This document shows, one piece after another, positions 10,011 through 20,720 of a DNA stretch of 33,749 nucleotides (the stretch's first letter is position 1; every line of letters begins with the position of its first letter). The position numbers and the translations under genes are program-made. The stretch comes from Desulfobacca acetoxidans (lineage in GTDB: Bacteria; Desulfobacterota; Desulfobaccia; Desulfobaccales; 0-14-0-80-60-11), in assembly GCA_020722205.1 (NCBI GenBank), contig DYLF01000009.1, positions 2,229 through 35,977 of the forward strand, read 5' to 3'. Below the pieces are notes generated by a model. It was given only the letters and a program-made list of their open reading frames with translations, ran no database searches and was not told where the DNA came from.

Positions 10011-10361
10011 TTAACCGTGGTATTCGTGGGTTCCCAGGATCACCGGTATGCCGGGGGCTTTGCCCTGGATGATCTGCGCAAATTCTTCGGGGCTGCTGTA
10101 GGGACAGGCCGGTTTGGCTTTGGCCAGGCAGGAACTGAGGTAAATGGCATCCGGCTTCATGTCCGCCAGCTTCATGGCCATTCCCACGTTAGCGGCCACA
10201 CTGCGGCCGGGACATTGGCATTTGACAAAAGACATGACCTGGACCGGTTCAGTAAAGTTCCCTTCGCCCAAGGTGGCCGCCTTCAGGCAGCGCCACTCCC
10301 CCGGACAGCCGTAACCGCTGTCCATGTAGGCCCCACATCCCACCAACATCACCTTTTTCAT
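10011..10361 (-). CDS. CGGC-domain protein, putative metal binding
   Basis: The 116-residue protein starts MKKVMLVGCGAYMD. It carries Cys-rich motifs in the order expected of the CGGC family: VGCG, GCPGEWRC and VKCQCPGRS, then YLSSCLAKAKPACPY. The family is thought to bind metal through these cysteines, but no reaction is established. The typical CGGC signature is here CQC followed by PGR, so the motif is degenerate. AGGAGG lies just ahead of ATG 10361. It is the last of nine minus-strand genes, 103 bases after the CoA-binding protein. Confidence 0.65.
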   Translation of the reverse strand: MKKVMLVGCGAYMDSGYGCPGEWRCLKAATLGEGNFTEPVQVMSFVKCQCPGRSVAANVGMAMKLADMKPDAIYLSSCLAKAKPACPYSSPEEFAQIIQGKAPGIPVILGTHEYHG

Positions 10362-10975: not shown

Positions 10976-11194
10976 TCATCTCTCCCGGGTCATCACGGCC
11001 CCACATTGCGGGCATTTCACTTCAAAACAGGGAACGCCCTGCTGGTGGGGCTCCTTGTGACCACAGGCCGGACAGATGCAAAATCCGCCCGGACCCATGC
11101 GAAACCCGCCCCCACGTCCACCGCCCCGGCCCATACCACCGCCTCTGCCAGCGCCACCACCGCCGCCCATGCCACGTCCTTTGACTTGCAACAT
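10976..11194 (-). CDS. Gly/Arg-rich protein with C-terminal zinc ribbon
   Basis: The 72-residue product has two parts. Residues 5-37 are almost all Gly, Arg and Met in RGGG-like repeats, a flexible, probably nucleic-acid- or protein-sticking tail. Residues 38-70 hold a zinc ribbon with CICPAC, a middle CF and CPQC. Small Gly-rich, Cys-containing proteins often accompany NifX-domain genes in anaerobes, which fits the CDF-NifX gene just upstream (91 bases). GGAGG lies ahead of ATG 11194. I cannot name a precise family. Confidence 0.7.
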   Translation of the reverse strand: MLQVKGRGMGGGGGAGRGGGMGRGGGRGGGFRMGPGGFCICPACGHKEPHQQGVPCFEVKCPQCGAVMTRER

Positions 11195-11285
11195 TAAAAT
11201 CCTCCTCTCCGACCGCCGTGGGTCTGGAAACTTAGTAGGTTCTGCACCAATAATTGATTAAGTCCGTGAAGTGTGCCATTCAGTT

Positions 11286-12524
11286 TTAAGCTGCACCAAC
11301 CGAAGACCGGTCGTTCTTTTCTGCTGGGGTGACTGATGCTGATGGTGTCAGCAATTCCTGTTTGATAAGGTCCAGGTCCCTTACAGTGGTGGTTTCCAGC
11401 ACCACGCCGGCATCGGCCAAGACGTAAAAGGGGCCCTTATGTTCAAGGCTCTTGGCTGCCAACACTTCATCCACCCCCTGGCTGATGAGCCACTCGCTGA
11501 CCTTGATCCCCTTACCGGAGGGCACTAGACGATGGGGATTCTCCAAGAGCCTTTCTTCCGTCAGTTGGTTGTCCTGGCTTCTCAAGGTAAGCAGAAGAAA
11601 ATAGGGTGCCTCCCCAAAGTGTTCCGACAGGTGCTGCCGGTCTTCCGACAGCGGCAGAGCAATGACCGTGGACATCTTTTGGGTGGGCTCATAATGGATG
11701 ACTAAGCGATCAACGTTGGAAACCCGGGACTTGATACGGTTCTCCATCTGATTAATAACAAAATGGGCCCTATCCAGTTCCTTCACCTTAAGGGAGAGGT
11801 CGGCTTCGATAAACTTATAGCGACCGGAGTTTCTCCCGCGCAGGGCATTGATTTTGCTGACTTGTGGAGTTTCCAGGATGATTTCTCTGACAATGTCCAG
11901 GGTGGCGAAATCCAGGGAGGCATCCAAGAGCACCCGGATGGCATCTACCGCAATTTTTAGGCCCACCCAGGCTACCAGCACCACGATGACCAGCGCCGCA
12001 GCCTTATCCAGGGGAAATTTGACCTGTAAATAGGCGCCGGCCAAGCCCATCAGGATAATACAGGAGGAAAACAGATCCGTGCTCAGGTGATGGGCGTCAG
12101 CCTCCAAGCTGGGGGAGTTGAGTAACTTGGCCTTTTTCAGTTCGTAGCGGCAAAAGGCTAAGAGGATCAAGGAAAGGGCGATCACTCCGGCAATGGCATA
12201 AGGCAGGCGTTCGGCCCTGACCCGCTCGCCGGCCCACAAGACACTTTGCGCGATTTCGTAACCTGCCAAGAAAATAATGACCGCAGTAACCAAAGCGGCC
12301 AGATTTTCTACTTTATAAAGACCATAGGGAAACATTTTCGATTTGCGGCGCGACAGCCGGATGCCGGCCCAAATTGAGGCGGAGGAGACCACATCTGCGG
12401 CCGAGTGCACAGCGTCGGCCAGAAGCGCCAGACTGCCAGAAAACATCCCCAGAAGATACTTCAGCCCGGCCACCAACAGGTTGACCAGCACCGAAGCTAA
12501 GGCCAATCGTTCTCCTGAATCCAT
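11286..12524 (-). CDS. CDF metal transporter fused to a NifX-type domain
   Basis: A 412-residue inner-membrane protein. The first 200 residues are a cation diffusion facilitator with six helices and metal-site residues Asp37, His40 and Asp44 in LADAVHSAAD (helix 2) and His146-X3-Asp150 in HHLSTD (helix 5). Residues 200-280 form the cytosolic CDF dimerisation domain. Residues 285-395 look like a dinitrogenase iron-molybdenum cofactor (NifX/NifB-C) domain: VIALPLSEDRQHLSEHFGEA, then PYFLLLTL and VDEVLAAKSLEHKG. CDF proteins export divalent metals (Zn, Fe, Mn) against protons. The added domain suggests metal-cluster sensing or hand-off in the cytosol. No good Shine-Dalgarno site is seen at ATG 12524. 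Confidence 0.88.
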   Translation of the reverse strand: MDSGERLALASVLVNLLVAGLKYLLGMFSGSLALLADAVHSAADVVSSASIWAGIRLSRRKSKMFPYGLYKVENLAALVTAVIIFLAGYEIAQSVLWAGERVRAERLPYAIAGVIALSLILLAFCRYELKKAKLLNSPSLEADAHHLSTDLFSSCIILMGLAGAYLQVKFPLDKAAALVIVVLVAWVGLKIAVDAIRVLLDASLDFATLDIVREIILETPQVSKINALRGRNSGRYKFIEADLSLKVKELDRAHFVINQMENRIKSRVSNVDRLVIHYEPTQKMSTVIALPLSEDRQHLSEHFGEAPYFLLLTLRSQDNQLTEERLLENPHRLVPSGKGIKVSEWLISQGVDEVLAAKSLEHKGPFYVLADAGVVLETTTVRDLDLIKQELLTPSASVTPAEKNDRSSVGAA

Positions 12525-12642: not shown

Positions 12643-13782
12643 TCAGGCCCCCAAGCTCTTCAAGCACCCATGACAGGCCGGCGGCCAGCGGCCAGAGCTG
12701 GCCGAAAACGGGTGGAGTTTTTTAATTTCTTTTGCTGCCCGGCTGTCAGGGATTGCCGATGGCAGGAGGCCAAAGATTGCGGCGGGAGTTTTGAAATAAT
12801 CAATGAAGTTGAGATAAGCCGATTTCTGCAGCAGGCTTTCCAGACTATTTTCTGCCACCTGGCCATAGAAATAGTTGCCGGCCAAATAAGATTCCTTGAA
12901 AAAGCGGCGCGTAAAAGGCCCGTCCACCGGCAATCCCAAGTAAACGCAGGGAGCCACTTCCCCCGAGGCGGTCACAAAGACCTGGCGGAGCGGATTGGCA
13001 TCGCACACTCTCAGGTCGAACTTCAGAGAGAGACTGAAATCTCGGAATGGCAGATGCAACCTTTGGGCTTCTGCCGCCGCTTCCTGCGAAATGGCTTCTA
13101 ATTCAGGGTCTGGTGGGCTCAGAGAAAGCAGGCTCAAAGAATCCATCTCCGGGAGGGGGATGAAATCCAAGTTGGGGGCGTTCACCCGGTCAACTCCGAG
13201 GGAGGCGGCAAGTCGCAAAAACTCCGGCAACTCTTTTAGGTTTGGCCGCATTTTCAGAAACAGCAACACCACCTCTGGCCTTTGTTGCCCCAGGGTGCGC
13301 TTGGCGGAGCAAAGGGTGGCGATATTGTCAATAACCCTTTGAAAGTCGCTGCCGGGACGCAATTTTTCATAGGTGTCGGCCCGGGTTGCATCCAGGGAGA
13401 TAGCCACCATATCAAGATGCTCCAGCACCCGCTTCCGCACCTCGGCGTTTAATCCTAACCCATTGGTGGTCAAGCTAACCTTCACTCCCTGAGCCCGCAA
13501 GGCCCGGGCCATATCCCAGAGCCGGGGGTGAAGAAGGGGCTCGCCCCAACCGCTGAGGTGGGCCTGGGAGAACAACGGTCGGGAGCTCAACAAGGCCTCA
13601 AAGGTCTGCCAGGACAGATCGCGAGATTGCCAGCTGGCGGGCCAAGCCGTACGGGGGCACATTACACAACCCGGCAATTGGCAGCGGGTGGTCACCTCCA
13701 CTTGCAGATAATCCCAGCGCGGTGGTTCCATCCCCCAAACCTTTTGGAAATATTCCAAAAGGGATTTTATCCGCATTAACAT
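12643..13782 (-). CDS. Radical SAM protein with SPASM-like C-terminal cysteines
   Basis: A 379-residue enzyme predicted to cleave S-adenosylmethionine at a [4Fe-4S] cluster. The cluster motif is Cys34-X4-Cys39-X2-Cys42 in TTRCQLPGCVMCPR, one residue longer than the usual CX3CX2C. The radical SAM barrel continues with LSGWGEPLLHPRL, SLTTNGLGL and MVAISLDATRADTYEKLRPG. The C-terminal part has VCDANPLRQVFVTASGEVAPC and a final PACHGC, consistent with a reduced SPASM or twitch auxiliary-cluster domain. Such enzymes modify peptides, cofactors or sugars; the substrate here is unknown. The start at ATG 13782 lacks a clear ribosome site. Confidence 0.85.
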   Translation of the reverse strand: MLMRIKSLLEYFQKVWGMEPPRWDYLQVEVTTRCQLPGCVMCPRTAWPASWQSRDLSWQTFEALLSSRPLFSQAHLSGWGEPLLHPRLWDMARALRAQGVKVSLTTNGLGLNAEVRKRVLEHLDMVAISLDATRADTYEKLRPGSDFQRVIDNIATLCSAKRTLGQQRPEVVLLFLKMRPNLKELPEFLRLAASLGVDRVNAPNLDFIPLPEMDSLSLLSLSPPDPELEAISQEAAAEAQRLHLPFRDFSLSLKFDLRVCDANPLRQVFVTASGEVAPCVYLGLPVDGPFTRRFFKESYLAGNYFYGQVAENSLESLLQKSAYLNFIDYFKTPAAIFGLLPSAIPDSRAAKEIKKLHPFSASSGRWPPACHGCLKSLGA

Positions 13783-14290: not shown

Positions 14291-14950
14291 CTACTCAAAC
14301 TCCAGAATACGGCCGACTCCTCCCGACACCGCAATGTCAGGGAAAAGTCGCAACATCTCAGACCTAGATTGAGAGCAATGGCACGGACAGACTAACCTTA
14401 AACCAGCCAAGAGGTCAAAATTCTTGCAAGCGTGAAAGCCCCCCACCAAGGCGGAAACCTTCCCGAAAGTAGAGGCGGTCTCCACGATAGCTGCTAATCC
14501 GGGATGGGCGCAGCCGCAGATGACAACCAGGCCTCTGGAAGTCTTGACCACCAGTGATTGCTCCACCCCCTGCAGAACCCCGGTGGAAAATCGGTTTTCA
14601 GACAGTGAGCAGGGGCCCTGTATCCGGATCACCTGCCGGGCGTCGCCCACCACAGGGCAGTCACCGGGGAGGTAAACGGTGGCCTCTGGGTTGACCTGGA
14701 GAAATTTGCGTATTCCCCCCAGATGATCCCAGTGCTCATGCGAAATAAAAACCTCCGGGATGGTGGTGGGGTCCAGATGGAGCCTCTTTAGATTGCGCAT
14801 CAACAGCTCGCCGTCTCCCCCAGTGTCAAACAGCAGTCGCCGGCCCTCCATTTCCACCAGGCAGGAAAACCCCCATTCAGATTCGAATCCGGGCCTGGCG
14901 ACTTCGTTATCATAGACAATAACAAGTTTCAGTTTCTTCCCGCAGGTCAA
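14291..14950 (-). CDS. Metallo-beta-lactamase-fold hydrolase (COG1237-like)
   Basis: A 219-residue soluble protein with the MBL metal motif SHEHWDHLGG (HXHXDH) and later metal ligands in CGCAHPGL and GGFHACKNFD. The overall pattern, starting LVIVYDNEVARPGFESEWGF followed by SCLVE, resembles COG1237. That family includes the beta-ribofuranosylaminobenzene phosphate synthase-like proteins of methanopterin metabolism and many uncharacterised bacterial relatives. The late CPCHC segment adds cysteines near the active site. Start TTG 14950 follows GGGGAGG. It is the third gene of the minus-strand block. Confidence 0.82.
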   Translation of the reverse strand: MTCGKKLKLVIVYDNEVARPGFESEWGFSCLVEMEGRRLLFDTGGDGELLMRNLKRLHLDPTTIPEVFISHEHWDHLGGIRKFLQVNPEATVYLPGDCPVVGDARQVIRIQGPCSLSENRFSTGVLQGVEQSLVVKTSRGLVVICGCAHPGLAAIVETASTFGKVSALVGGFHACKNFDLLAGLRLVCPCHCSQSRSEMLRLFPDIAVSGGVGRILEFE

Positions 14951-15189
14951 TTTCCTTTTCCTCCCCGGCCGACGCCATATTTACCGCCACAGGAAATCTT
15001 GGGCATCATTAATAAGACCCTATCCCGGCGAGCAAAGCAAGGACATAAAAAGTGCAGAAGTCTTTCTAGGAACAAAATGAACCCCATTAATATGTTATTA
15101 GGTGCAAAATGTTCCGGATAGCTTTTTCTCTTCGGGGAAACTTGTTTACCCAGGGAAAAGCTGAAGAGGTGCCGAGCCTGGTCCCCGGC

Positions 15190-16143
15190 TTAATGGGGAC
15201 GACTCTTTCTTTCATAAAAAACCGCCCCCTTTAGCCGGACGGCCGAAATTTCGCCTTGCTCGCTCAAAGCCTGCAGTCGTTTTATGGCCTCCCCCACATG
15301 CATACCGAGACCGGCGGCCACCCCGTGAAGGCTGGACGGACGACGGCTGAGCAAGGCCAGGATTTCCGCGTCGGTTGGGGCGCCGTTGGTCGGGGAGGAC
15401 AATGCCAGTGGTTCTTCTTGGGTGATCACTTCCACTTTGAGGTCAAACATCTGGGCAAAGACCCTCATCTGCTCTTCAGGGACCGGGGAGGCGAATTCTT
15501 CGGCAGTTGGACGGGACACCGTATTCAGTTGCACTCGTCCCGGTTTAATACTCTTGGCCAGCGCGGCGATTTTCTCCACTTCCGACTTTATACCGGTTAT
15601 TCCTGTCAGGAGAAACACTTCCAGCCACACCGCGCCGGGAAAATCTCGGGTGAAGGCAGCCAGACCGTTGACCATTCGGTCAAAGGTAATGTTGCGATGG
15701 GGACGATTGACATAACGGAACAAATGTTCGTCTCCGGCGTCTAAAGAGGGGATGACCAAGTCGGCGGCCATTAAGGCCTCTTGCACCTCAGGTTGCCACA
15801 GGAGCGAACCATTGGTGAGCACTGCTACGGGGATCCGGGTTAAGCTCTTGATCTTACTGATCAGCTCACCGATCCGGTTATTCAGCGTGGGTTCTCCAGA
15901 GCCCGCCAAGGTGAGGTAATCCGGAGACGGCGAGGCGGCCAGTTTCTGTTCCAATTCTCTGAGGATGTCGACCACCGGAAAATATTCTTGCCTTTGGACG
16001 GTCTTGCGCGTCGTCCGCCCCAACTGGCAGTAAATGCAATCATAGGTGCAGACCTTAAAGGGCACCAGGTCTATTCCCAGGGAGCGTCCCAAACGCCGGG
16101 AGTTTACCGGACCATAAAGGTAGCGAAATCCAGTTGCCTTCAC
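15190..16143 (-). CDS. Radical SAM protein, COG0731-like
   Basis: A 317-residue radical SAM enzyme. Its N terminus GPVNSRRLGRSLGIDLVP and cluster motif Cys32-X3-Cys36-X2-Cys39 (CTYDCIYC) match the COG0731 group, the group that includes wyosine-forming Fe-S enzymes and many uncharacterised bacterial proteins. LAGSGEPTL, VLTNGSLLW and DAGDEHLFRYVNRPH follow. The last 60 residues look like a winged-helix domain (ILALLSRRPSSLHGVAAGLG). I chose GTG 16143 because it overlaps the FmdB stop as TAGTG and has GGGGAGG five bases ahead; an in-frame ATG at 16158 lies inside the FmdB gene with no ribosome site. Bacterial substrate unknown. Confidence 0.85.
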   Translation of the reverse strand: MKATGFRYLYGPVNSRRLGRSLGIDLVPFKVCTYDCIYCQLGRTTRKTVQRQEYFPVVDILRELEQKLAASPSPDYLTLAGSGEPTLNNRIGELISKIKSLTRIPVAVLTNGSLLWQPEVQEALMAADLVIPSLDAGDEHLFRYVNRPHRNITFDRMVNGLAAFTRDFPGAVWLEVFLLTGITGIKSEVEKIAALAKSIKPGRVQLNTVSRPTAEEFASPVPEEQMRVFAQMFDLKVEVITQEEPLALSSPTNGAPTDAEILALLSRRPSSLHGVAAGLGMHVGEAIKRLQALSEQGEISAVRLKGAVFYERKSRPH

Positions 16144-16406
16144 TAAGCCTCCCCACATGGCGGCCGTTCGCAGCGGCTCTCCCGACCACAGCAGGTGCCG
16201 CCCCCCTGATCCAGAGAACAGGCCTGGTCCCGCTTTCTTGCCCGCCCAGGGCTTCCGCCCTTGAGGATGAAGCCTGTCCCCCCGCTGACCAGGCGTCGCA
16301 ACTCACCGCCACATTCAGGACACTCGCCCAGGGACGGCTCCATTATGCCTTGTTGCACTTCAAACTGGCGGCCGCATTGCTGACATTCGTATTCATAGGT
16401 CGGCAT
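16143..16406 (-). CDS. FmdB-family zinc ribbon protein
   Basis: An 87-residue protein starting MPTYEYECQQCGRQFEV, the standard FmdB-type zinc ribbon opening. Two CX2C knuckles, CQQC and CPEC, bind the metal. They are followed by the usual short core (LRRLVSGGTGFILKGG) and a Cys-rich tail containing CSL, TCCG and CERPPC. Members are described as putative regulators, named after a formylmethanofuran dehydrogenase locus, but evidence is thin. It is the first gene of the minus-strand block. Its TAG stop overlaps the GTG start of the radical SAM gene. A sigma-54 promoter match lies 70-85 bases upstream. Confidence 0.85.
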   Translation of the reverse strand: MPTYEYECQQCGRQFEVQQGIMEPSLGECPECGGELRRLVSGGTGFILKGGSPGRARKRDQACSLDQGGGTCCGRESRCERPPCGEA

Positions 16407-16475
16407 AAGGAATCCTTTCCTGCTTGGTTTTAACCTTTTATTTTATGAGAGAAACAAATTCATTTATATTAAAAA

Positions 16476-16491
16476 TGCAGATAGCGTGCCA
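16476..16491 (-). promoter_or_regulatory. Sigma-54 (RpoN) promoter candidate for the fmdB-led block
   Basis: Read on the minus strand the sequence is TGGCACGCTATCTGCA, preceded by C. It fits the RpoN consensus YTGGCACG-N4-TTGCW with the GG (-24) and GC (-12) pairs at exact spacing; the first T of TTGC is C here. Transcription would start about 60 bases ahead of the FmdB start codon. Dependence on RpoN is inference. Confidence 0.6.
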
Positions 16492-16501
16492 GCTCTTTTA
16501 T

Positions 16502-16532
16502 TGCACCAAAGATTATAGTTGACCCTGGTGCA
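16502..16532. promoter_or_regulatory. Inverted repeat TGCACCA-N17-TGGTGCA
   Basis: Perfect 7-base arms at 16502-16508 and 16526-16532 lie just upstream of the -24 element of the sigma-54 candidate, in the divergent gap between fmdB and the M15-like gene. It could be a regulator-binding dyad. The distance is shorter than the usual 100 or so bases for an enhancer site. Confidence 0.4.
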
Positions 16533-16653
16533 GGTTTAATAAGGGGAAGCTGCTCAGTCGTTATTAATTCCTTGAAATTACTCTTAATTCTTAACTCTGA
16601 AGATAGAGAAGAATGGATTGCATCGTTTAGTGTCCTCGCATAAAATAGGTGAC

Positions 16654-17730
16654 ATGGTATCCCGGCGGGCGATTTCTGGGCTGGTACTGCTTTTCTTCTT
16701 ACTGCTGGTCGCCTTCCCTTTGTCCCCCCTGGCGGCAGACAGCTCTTTCTTGGCCGCGCCGCCGCGGCCCCAAGTGCTGGCACCCGCAGAATTCCCCCAC
16801 ACGGCCAGGATGCTCCGCCGGCTTGCCTTAAGCTATGTGCCAGGACTCTCCCGGGAGGCCCGGGAGCAGGATTTTCTCCAGAAACTGACCCAGGCCAGAA
16901 GCATGCTTGGGCTGACGCGCTTAGTGGCCCTTCGGCATCAGACCCTGGCTTTGGCGGCAGCCAACGGACGGGAGCCCTCCTGGGAATTTTTGCGGCGCCA
17001 ACGCTGGCCTCAGGGTGAAAAAGTGGGCCTCACCCTGAGTGTGCCGGTGTGGGTGCCCTGCCGGGCCCGCCGTGTCACTACCTATGCCGGCTTCGAAAAG
17101 CGCTGGGAAACGGTGGCGATGCAATTACCCCGCCATTCCGGCTATGTGTGGTTCGCCGGGCAATTAGCCGACATCAATGACAAGGCCCGGTATCGGGCAG
17201 AAACCATTCAGTTCGAGATTAACAGCCGCTTTGCCCCACTGGTGGCATTGTTCCTAGAATATATCTTTCGGGAAGGATGGTATGAGAGGGAGAAAAGGAT
17301 ACCTTTGCTGGTGGTGCGGGGCGGCGAAGACACTTATGCGGCCAGTGGCTACAGCGGCCCGGTAACGGCGGAGTGTTTGAGTTTCCCCGATGAGGAGGGA
17401 GCTTCTCTTTCGGCTCAGGTTAAAACCCTGATTCATCCCAGCCTGGCCGCCATTCACCACGGCCGCCACAGTAAGACCTCCAACCATCGTCTGGGGCTGG
17501 CCTTGGACCTGAATGACTTCAATTTCGCCGAAGTCGTGGATGGCTCTCCCAACCCCATCAGCCGGGCCACCCGTCAGTATGACCGTGACGCCATGCATAA
17601 ACTGGATGCCCGCCATCTCCCGGCCTGGGTCTATCGAGCCGGCAAGTGGGTGGGTTTACGCCTGCCCCAAGAGTGGATTTACTTCGGCTACCACACGGAT
17701 TGGGCCCATTTCGACGTCGGCACCAGATGA
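16654..17730 (+). CDS. Secreted M15-like peptidase (D-Ala-D-Ala carboxypeptidase type)
   Basis: A 358-residue exported protein. From ATG 16654 it opens with basic residues and a hydrophobic run (LVLLFFLLLVAFPLSPLAA), a signal peptide cleaved near AADS. The C-terminal part has SNHRLGLALD, which fits the zinc motif SXHXXGXAXD of M15 peptidases, and a late HTDWAHFDVG resembling their EXWH end, with Asp in place of the usual Glu. Such enzymes trim peptidoglycan stems in the periplasm. The middle (about residues 90-230) matches nothing I know. ATG 16654 is better than a TTG at 16618 because the signal peptide then starts properly and AGGTGA is close by. Confidence 0.72.
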   Translation: MVSRRAISGLVLLFFLLLVAFPLSPLAADSSFLAAPPRPQVLAPAEFPHTARMLRRLALSYVPGLSREAREQDFLQKLTQARSMLGLTRLVALRHQTLALAAANGREPSWEFLRRQRWPQGEKVGLTLSVPVWVPCRARRVTTYAGFEKRWETVAMQLPRHSGYVWFAGQLADINDKARYRAETIQFEINSRFAPLVALFLEYIFREGWYEREKRIPLLVVRGGEDTYAASGYSGPVTAECLSFPDEEGASLSAQVKTLIHPSLAAIHHGRHSKTSNHRLGLALDLNDFNFAEVVDGSPNPISRATRQYDRDAMHKLDARHLPAWVYRAGKWVGLRLPQEWIYFGYHTDWAHFDVGTR

Positions 17731-17795: not shown

Positions 17796-20720
17796 ATGAC
17801 TAATGCCATGCTGTCAGAGCTAGTCCATGCCCTGCGGAGTGCCCCCGAATATCAAGATATTATTCGGCACTACCAATATGTCGAACCCCGGCCGGTGGAA
17901 TTTTATGACGGTGACCCGAAATTGCCGGGGCCAGTGCTGGTAGCCTTACAGCGCCTGGGCATCCCTCGTCTCTACCGGCACCAGGGGGAGGCCCTGGCCG
18001 CCATCCGGGAGGGACGCCACATCCTGGTGGCCACTCCCACAGCCAGCGGCAAGACCCTGATTTACAACCTGCCGGTGCTGGCCACCTTACTGGCCGAGCC
18101 GCAGGCACACGCTCTGTACCTTTTTCCACTGAAAGCCCTGGCTCAGGATCAGCTCAAGGCCCTGAAAGAACTTGATAATGCCCTACCCTCCCCTTTTGTC
18201 TCGGCGGCCATTTACGACGGCGACACTCCTCCCTCCCAGCGCCAAGCCCTGAAAGCCTGGCCGCCTCAGGTGCTGATCAGCAATCCGGACATGCTGCATC
18301 TGGGCCTTTTGCCGTACCACGACGGCTGGGCCCGGTTCTTTGCCCGCCTGCGTTTTGTGGTCATCGATGAAGTCCACACCTATCGCGGCATTTTCGGCAG
18401 TCATCTGGCCCAGGTGCTGCGGCGGCTCCGCCGCTTGTGTGCCCATTACGGAGCAGCGCCGCAATTTTTGATGTCTTCGGCCACCATTGCAGAAGCACCT
18501 GATTTTATTGATAAATTGACCGGGTTGGAAGTGACTCTCATTGGCGACAGCGGCGCACCTCAGTCAGGACGTCACTTTCTCTTTCTCAATCCGTTGACTG
18601 GCGGCGCTACGGTCGCCGCCCAGATTTTCGCCCACTGCGTCAAGCAGAATCTGGCCACCATCTGCTTCACCCAGAGTCGCAAGCTCACGGAGCTCATTCA
18701 TCTTTGGGTTCAGCGCCAGATTCCAGAGCTGAGGCGCTACCTGAGCTCTTACCGGGCCGGCTTCCTGCCTGAGGAGCGCCGGGAGATCGAAGCCAAACTG
18801 GCCAAGGGCAAGATGCGGGGGGTCATCTCCACCAGTGCCCTGGAGATGGGCATTGATATCGGAGGCCTAAACGTTTGCATCCTGGTGGGTTACCCCGGCA
18901 CTATGGTCACCGCCATGCAGCGCATTGGTCGGGTGGGGCGGGGCAATGGGGATTGCCTGATTGTCCTGGTGGCCATGCCGGATGCCCTGGATCAATATTT
19001 CATCAAGTATCCGGAGGAATTTTTTGGTCGTTCCCTGGAGGCGGCGGTGGTGGACCCGGACAATCCGGTGGTAGTCCGGGCTCATCTGCCCTGCGCTGCC
19101 CAGGAACTGCCCCTTAATCCTGAGACGGAAAAGTTTTTCGATCTAACTGCTCATCAAGAGGAACTGGCCGCGCTGGCGCAGCAGGGACGCCTCCTGCAGA
19201 GCGCGCAGGGCCAGGTCTGGTTGGCCCGTTCCCGCTTTCCCCAGAAGGAAGTGAACATTCGGGGCGTGGGCGAGAGCTTCGCCATCTTCCAGATCGGCAA
19301 AAAAAAGCCCCTGGGACATGTGGACGGACACCGGGCCTTAAAGGAATGCCATCCCGGCGCCGTCTATCTGCACAAAGCCGACACTTTCACGGTTGAAAAA
19401 CTGGACCTCGACAAGCGCAATGTCTGGGTAAAACCCATCGACCCCCATTACTTCACCCGCATCCAAACTGATAAGGAAACAGAGATTCTGGAGGTGCTGG
19501 CGACCAGGCAGGTCGCCAAGTTTACCGCTCACAGCGGCCGCCTCAAAGTTACCGAACGGATCCTGTCTTATGAGAAGCGCCGCCTCCCCGGGCAGGAACT
19601 TTTAGGTATCATCCCCCTGGACCTGCCGCCGCAAATCTTTGAAACCGTGGGGATGTGGATGGAGATACCCCAAACGGTGAAGGAGGCCATCTATCAGAGC
19701 GGTCTTCACTTTATGGGCGGCATCCACGCCCTGGAGCATACTCTGATCAGCATGTTTCCCCTTTTTGCCTTGGCGGACCGCAATGACATCGGCGGCATTT
19801 CCACCCCGGCCCATCCCCAGGTGGGCGGCGCCGCTATTTTTATTTATGATGGTTATCCGGGGGGCGTAGGTTTGGCGGCCCGGGCTTTTCAGATTCTGGA
19901 CGAGCTGCTCCGGCGGGCCTATGAAACTATTACTGCCTGTGCCTGCGAAGAGGGTTGTCCTTCCTGCATCCACTCCCCCAAGTGCGGCTCCGGCAACAAA
20001 CCGTTAGACAAGGAGGCTGCCCGCCAGGTGGCCGAGATGCTTTTGACCGGGCGGGTCTGCCAGCCGGTTGTGGTCTCCGCCTCCCCCCCGGTCACCCTGC
20101 CTCCTGTCCCCCCTCCCTCCCCTACCCTTCTGCCCCCGAGCACCGTTCCTTGGATGCACAGCCGCCGGGTGGGGTTTCTAGACTTGGAGACCTGTTGCTC
20201 CGCCGAAGAGGTGGGCGGCTGGCACCGCTGCCACGAGATGGGAGTATCCGTGGCGGTGCTGATCGAAACCCAACCGGAGCGCTGCACTGTTTACCGACAG
20301 GAAAACCTGGAGCAGTTGGGGCGCCGCCTGAAGGAGCTTGAGCTGGTAGTGGGTTTTAACCTCAAACGCTTCGATTATCGGGTCCTGCAACCGTACCTCA
20401 ATCTGCCTCTCACCGAATTGCTCACTCTGGACATTCTGGAGGAAATCTACCAGGTGTTGGGGTTCCGGCTCTCCCTGAACCATCTGGCAGAAATGACTCT
20501 GGGCCAACAGAAGACCGGGGACGGCCTGTTGGCCTTGGAGTATTACAAGGAGGGCAAGTGGCAGGAATTGGAGGACTACTGCCGCCAGGATGTGCTCCTC
20601 ACGCGGAGCCTCTTTGAATTCGGAGCCAAGGAGGGCTACCTGCTTTATCGCCACCGCCAGGGGACCGTGGTCAAGGTGCCGGTGGCTTGGCAGGAGGAGC
20701 GGTTTTTTCGCAAACCGTGA
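17796..20720 (+). CDS. MrfA-type DEAH helicase fused to MrfB-type exonuclease
   Basis: A 974-residue protein. Residues 50-450 are a superfamily 2 helicase with Walker A ATPTASGKT (79-87), DEVH (191-194), SSAT, SALEMGIDIGG and QRIGRVGR. Residues 600-760 form the DUF1998-type region with the cysteine cluster Cys715-X-Cys717-X3-Cys721-X2-Cys724, as in Bacillus MrfA (YprA). After a Pro-rich linker, residues 790-955 are an RNase-H-like 3'-5' exonuclease with Asp796 and Glu798 in FLDLET, Asp860 in KRFDYRV, and Tyr928-X3-Asp932. This matches YprB (MrfB), normally a separate protein. In B. subtilis the pair repairs mitomycin C damage; a DNA repair role here is inferred. The start has a poor ribosome site; ATG 17808 is an alternative. 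Confidence 0.9.
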   Translation: MTNAMLSELVHALRSAPEYQDIIRHYQYVEPRPVEFYDGDPKLPGPVLVALQRLGIPRLYRHQGEALAAIREGRHILVATPTASGKTLIYNLPVLATLLAEPQAHALYLFPLKALAQDQLKALKELDNALPSPFVSAAIYDGDTPPSQRQALKAWPPQVLISNPDMLHLGLLPYHDGWARFFARLRFVVIDEVHTYRGIFGSHLAQVLRRLRRLCAHYGAAPQFLMSSATIAEAPDFIDKLTGLEVTLIGDSGAPQSGRHFLFLNPLTGGATVAAQIFAHCVKQNLATICFTQSRKLTELIHLWVQRQIPELRRYLSSYRAGFLPEERREIEAKLAKGKMRGVISTSALEMGIDIGGLNVCILVGYPGTMVTAMQRIGRVGRGNGDCLIVLVAMPDALDQYFIKYPEEFFGRSLEAAVVDPDNPVVVRAHLPCAAQELPLNPETEKFFDLTAHQEELAALAQQGRLLQSAQGQVWLARSRFPQKEVNIRGVGESFAIFQIGKKKPLGHVDGHRALKECHPGAVYLHKADTFTVEKLDLDKRNVWVKPIDPHYFTRIQTDKETEILEVLATRQVAKFTAHSGRLKVTERILSYEKRRLPGQELLGIIPLDLPPQIFETVGMWMEIPQTVKEAIYQSGLHFMGGIHALEHTLISMFPLFALADRNDIGGISTPAHPQVGGAAIFIYDGYPGGVGLAARAFQILDELLRRAYETITACACEEGCPSCIHSPKCGSGNKPLDKEAARQVAEMLLTGRVCQPVVVSASPPVTLPPVPPPSPTLLPPSTVPWMHSRRVGFLDLETCCSAEEVGGWHRCHEMGVSVAVLIETQPERCTVYRQENLEQLGRRLKELELVVGFNLKRFDYRVLQPYLNLPLTELLTLDILEEIYQVLGFRLSLNHLAEMTLGQQKTGDGLLALEYYKEGKWQELEDYCRQDVLLTRSLFEFGAKEGYLLYRHRQGTVVKVPVAWQEERFFRKP

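Follow-up and report, generated by a model that had tools for sequence, protein, structure and literature searches.

A probable sigma-54 promoter ahead of an fmdB-radical SAM gene pair in Desulfobacca acetoxidans, with a candidate activator encoded in an orp-type cluster

A block of metal- and cofactor-related genes in Desulfobacca acetoxidans is preceded by a sequence resembling a sigma-54 promoter with a perfect inverted repeat beside it, which raises the question of whether the block is under sigma-54 control, which activator would serve it and whether the repeat belongs to the regulatory element. The initial annotation of the window (the whole stretch of 33,749 nucleotides that was analysed) had read promoter and repeat as one element. 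The reading that we favour, with a probability of about 0.6, is that a sigma-54 promoter points into the genes fmdB and rSAM, that its likeliest activator is a PAS-AAA-Fis protein encoded in an MrpORP/NifX (orp) cluster on another contig of the same genome, C74, and that the dyad is incidental. The features at the head of the block are as follows.

16492-16476, minus strand: probable sigma-54 -24/-12 promoter CTGGCACGCTATCTGCA, assessed by pattern, matrix and shuffle tests
16502-16532, no strand: dyad TGCACCA-N17-TGGTGCA, probably incidental
16143-16406, minus strand: fmdB, zinc-ribbon protein (Zn_ribbon_8; TIGR02605 FmdB family, 70 bits against a cut-off of 31.3)
15190-16158, minus strand: rSAM, a radical SAM protein gene overlapping fmdB

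The putative promoter is present as had been described, on the minus strand and facing fmdB, with GG at -24, GC at -12 and the exact GG-N10-GC spacing, and its single mismatch to TGGCACNNNNNTTGCW is a C replacing the first T of TTGC, so that the -12 element reads CTGCA. The -12 GC lies at 16478-16477 and the transcription start is therefore expected near 16465, which, with the fmdB ATG at 16406, predicts a leader of approximately 59 nt; AAAGGA-type spacing is seen ahead of the fmdB start. The region between fmdB and a divergent reading frame (ATG at 16656) is AT-rich and spans 249 bp. Within the window, CTGGCACGCTATCTGCA is the sole match to TGGCACNNNNNTTGCW with one mismatch, and it is also the top-scoring position (15.3 bits) for a matrix derived from 14 other intergenic sites of this genome, whose own leave-one-out scores range over 12.7-21.1 bits. 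When the intergenic sequence was dinucleotide-shuffled 5000 times, an equal or better match arose 25 times. The CTGC at -12 recurs in two other intergenic sigma-54 sites of the genome.

Sigma-54 promoters need an enhancer-binding ATPase, and distal activator sites occur. The genome carries a single rpoN gene and encodes 16 strong Sigma54_activat proteins. Allowing at most one mismatch, TGGCACNNNNNTTGCW gave 82 matches in the 2.64-Mb genome versus 37 for a reversed control pattern. When the surroundings of all 82 were compared, 26 lay outside coding-like ORFs, among them all five perfect matches, versus about 3% of random positions; this latter figure underestimates the intergenic share, the ORF criterion being lenient, and the excess stands even at 10-15%. 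The fmdB-facing site resembles intergenic sigma-54 sites ahead of glnA-like, FliL-like and flagellar-hook-like genes of this genome, whose products we take, by eye from the protein sequences, to be glutamine synthetase, FliL and a flagellar hook/rod protein. With RpoN, the activators and plausible promoters of the same pattern elsewhere in the genome, the proposed sigma-54 reading holds, and CTGGCACGCTATCTGCA is probably a real promoter of the fmdB-rSAM pair, as judged from sequence evidence; its match and the excess over chance are computed, and from these we infer that it is probably used. In Desulfovibrio vulgaris the sigma-54 regulome shows -24/-12 elements tGGcacg and tTGCt, with regulons mostly comprising one to four operons (PMC4641369); the fmdB promoter is like these elements, while differing in organism and in its -12 CTGCA.

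It is improbable, in our estimation, that the match is a product of chance and that transcription starts from another intergenic promoter, such as the TATAAT within the dyad spacer (about 16514-16519, minus strand). An equally good match in one of every 200 shuffles would be compatible with such an explanation, as would the lack of conservation of the site in orthologues, but pattern matches in intergenic positions are far commoner in the genome than expected, and a sigma-70 scan found no promoter-like pair in the region. A simple scan around the fmdB promoter returned neither sigma-70 promoters nor terminators.

The matter of conservation depends on how the gene pair is arranged elsewhere. 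Another 37 loci, mostly of Syntrophaceae type and from other phyla, contain the overlapping fmdB-rSAM pair at 50-61% identity; in most of these fmdB begins a few bases past an upstream gene, in operons of NifX, TrmO and MinD/ferredoxin type. A search for the same element in orthologous blocks had been proposed as a check on the promoter, and its outcome is formally negative: a comparable -24/-12 element near fmdB is absent from the 37 pairs, and no conservation of the element was found at their operon heads. This is weak counter-evidence, because fmdB is mostly an internal cistron in those loci and not the head of a transcript. Operons of the NifX-TrmO-MinD type in Smithella and other Syntrophaceae hold the same overlapping pair at 50-61% identity, usually close behind other genes, whereas the pair in the window heads its block with 249 bp upstream. 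The window's own family yielded only more distant copies of fmdB-rSAM, among a list of relatives that is without another genome of the window's genus. At about 60% identity to Syntrophaceae and other-phyla copies, fmdB-rSAM (15190-16406) is nearer to these than to own-family proteins, and the pair may possibly have been acquired horizontally. A second rSAM copy, 47% identical to that in the window, is located on contig C53.

As regards the dyad, it is present and perfect where it had been reported (arms TGCACCA at 16502-16508 and TGGTGCA at 16526-16532, spacer 17), but the role assigned to it in the element was not supported. A perfect 7-bp dyad with a spacer of 0-40 occurred in 2879 of 5000 shuffles (58%), or in 294 of 5000 (6%) where at least 4 G/C were demanded. 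The dyad occurs once in the genome and one arm ends approximately 10 bp from the -24 box, and for these reasons, together with its frequency in shuffles, it is unremarkable and probably incidental. As a shared regulatory motif it was rejected, being present as a single copy in its own genome with no repeats in the family; TGGTGCA combined with a sigma-54 architecture was likewise rejected, as it was found in 6 of 395 genomes, about the control level, and in unrelated contexts.

We consider it very unlikely that the dyad is a true operator, at which an activator or repressor would control either the fmdB promoter or its divergent neighbour gene. Its perfection speaks for this, as does the orp-type half-site hexamer GGTGCA, which occurs twice in the dyad at N19 (real pairs have N17), and its arms appear to equal the half-site of enterobacterial NtrC. 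Against it, more than half of shuffled sequences hold such a dyad, this one is unique in the genome, its arms score -7.5 and -7.8 as activator sites, the distance from the -24 box would be unusual for a hexameric activator, and a comparable architecture in the 395 genomes is not above control level. The 17-bp spacer is, moreover, far from the NtrC spacing, and no NtrC sites containing TGCACC turned up when the literature was searched for them.

In the region upstream of the fmdB promoter, a matrix scan of 16407-16900 detected no orp-type activator site (best 7.2 bits), no TGT-N8..13-ACA was present in 16407-16655, and no IHF-like sites were found. This region may still hold a site for some other activator. 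The initial annotation had suggested checking the genome for an enhancer-binding regulator near an equivalent locus. One such regulator exists, but it is encoded on another contig and its probable paired sites (15069-15115) fall outside the interval then reported. Contig C74 carries an MrpORP/NifX cluster in which MrpORP (NF041136, 520 bits against a cut-off of 450) is accompanied by NifX-type proteins, two P-loop/ferredoxin-type ATPases, two sigma-54 sites and the cluster's own PAS-AAA-Fis activator, which has PAS, Sigma54_activat and HTH_8 domains and is one of the genome's 16 strong Sigma54_activat proteins. Orthologues of this activator, with 75-83% identity, mark orp clusters in the genomes of the family.

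The orp operons of Desulfovibrio vulgaris Hildenborough depend on sigma-54, the activator DVU2106 and IHF (PMC3897727). The C74 cluster is like them in its MrpORP, NifX-type proteins and paired P-loop/ferredoxin ATPases, and also in its PAS-AAA-Fis activator and its sigma-54 promoters with upstream palindromic sites (PMC3897727). The block in the window differs from the D. vulgaris orp operons: it is off the contig of the activator's cluster, has no activator gene inside and begins with fmdB-rSAM, and its strong promoter lies upstream of the paired sites.

Among relatives, sigma-54 promoters stand before the NifX and MrpORP operons and are themselves preceded by a conserved near-palindrome with the consensus GGTGCATTTTGTTCC, and for most copies scoring at least 17 bits a sigma-54 site starts 41-106 bp away, with the motif upstream. 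The fmdB promoter shares 15 of its 17 bases with CTGGCACGCAATCTGCT, the orp NifX promoter of relative L292, and 14 of 17 with those of L293 and L300, a resemblance which bears out the previously suggested link to NifX-type operons. The MrpORP-type sigma-54 promoters of the family end in TTGAT and not TTGCT, a consistent -12 variant seen at L291, L293, L296-L298, L300-L304 and L311. In the MrpORP operon of the genome itself, two copies of the motif form an inverted pair, TGCACC-N17-GGTGCG. A pair of this type was also located within the block, whose remaining features are listed below.

15069-15115, minus strand: paired candidate activator (UAS) sites GGAACATTTTGCACC-N17-GGTTCATTTTGTTCC, of orp-cluster type, from a matrix scan
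14291-14950, minus strand: metallo-beta-lactamase-fold protein (MBL), first gene past the paired sites
12643-13782, minus strand: radical SAM/SPASM protein, nearest to metalloenzyme maturases
11286-12524, minus strand: cation-efflux (CDF) transporter fused to a C-terminal NifX-type domain
10976-11194, minus strand: Gly-rich zinc-ribbon small protein
10011-10361, minus strand: CGGC-domain protein

The pair reads GGAACATTTTGCACC-TAATAACATATTAATGG-GGTTCATTTTGTTCC from 15115 to 15069, between rSAM and the MBL gene, and shares its N17 spacing with the pair of the genome's own MrpORP operon. The activator matrix, built exclusively with sites from other genomes (12-13 sites, assembled by eye before scanning), gave its two highest hits in the window at 15084 (minus strand, 22.1 bits) and 15100 (plus strand, 15.5 bits), the third-best hit being 12.3. 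The best of 501892 other positions, taken from fetched loci in unrelated parts of this genome, reached 16.8 bits, and none of 3000 shuffles of the gap reached 22 bits. A strict pair pattern was found in 3 of 395 genomes of the phylum, versus none for the reversed control, and in two genomes of other families the pair adjoins an activator gene with the same domain make-up as that on C74. At one locus from another family (L309:1500-1548) paired activator sites have an activator gene on one side and, on the other, the sigma-54 promoter CTGGCATAGAAGTTGCT. Approximately 0.8 Mb of fmdB-relative loci contained one single matrix hit of at least 17 bits, so that the motif is tied to the orp system rather than to fmdB-rSAM pairs at large.

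The motif in the relatives' orp clusters and the pair in the window are, like the promoter excess, computed, and it is binding of the activator to the pair, and which promoter the pair would serve, that we infer from them. In the favoured reading transcription would start near 16465 from the 16476-16492 promoter and run into fmdB and the overlapping rSAM, perhaps continuing through the MBL, SPASM, CDF-NifX and CGGC genes, while the likeliest enhancer-binding ATPase would be the C74 activator of the MrpORP/NifX cluster, which would bind the orp-type pair at 15069-15115. Pairs elsewhere mostly lie no more than about 110 bp upstream of the promoter, but this one is approximately 1.37 kb downstream of the transcription start predicted for fmdB. 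The usual distance would place a sigma-54 promoter at about 15027-14984; no good one was found 41-106 bp from the pair, the best in the gap being GTGGCGGTAAATATGGC at 14990 (9.9 of 16.8), and fmdB has the sole strong sigma-54 promoter in the block. The alternatives, which may also coexist, are that the activator acts on fmdB from a site within the operon and that MBL has a degenerate promoter. That an orp-type activator drives the fmdB promoter from this distal pair, between the second and third genes, is in itself a proposition to which we give little credence.

It is rather unlikely, if possible, that the pair drives a separate, degenerate sigma-54 promoter before MBL, leaving fmdB-rSAM as a two-gene unit of its own with another activator. 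Such an arrangement would account for the position of the pair in the 240-bp gap before MBL, for the distance of 77 bp between GTGGCGGTAAATATGGC and the pair, which is inside the range of the relatives, and for the orp-cluster relative of MBL. However, the score of GTGGCGGTAAATATGGC is at chance level in comparable stretches, and the leader would be approximately 13 nt.

Returning to the reading in which the block is governed from the fmdB promoter and the C74 activator, several of its genes have relatives in orp-cluster loci. MBL has a 58% identical copy in the orp cluster locus of L293, the SPASM protein (TIGR04317, 141 bits, under the cut-off of 380) has a counterpart in L307, 65% identical and encoded close to an orp activator homologue, the C-terminal part of the Gly-rich zinc-ribbon protein is 73-88% identical in the orp cluster loci L292, L294, L300 and L305-L307, and the CGGC protein has an 83% identical copy in that of L294. 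These relatives support common control, and an orp-type regulon probably extends to the block. If this is true, the orp circuit, known as a local system of an activator plus two operons, reaches unlinked genes in this family, namely those of metal transport and radical-SAM maturation, and GGTGCATTTTGTTCC in N17 pairs becomes a concrete motif with which to search for the regulon in anaerobes.

The Gly-rich zinc-ribbon gene is preceded by two TTGGTGCA octamers at a distance of 49 bp from each other (11243-11250 and 11292-11299, minus strand); the octamer occurs four times in the window versus approximately one expected, and one of these copies lies in the dyad. The repeats at 11243 and 11292 were considered as activator sites and rejected, as the activator matrix gives no hit there. 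A secreted-looking protein (16618-17730) is encoded ahead of an HRQ1/MrfA-type helicase (17796-20720) that combines an MZB domain with an RNase H-like domain.
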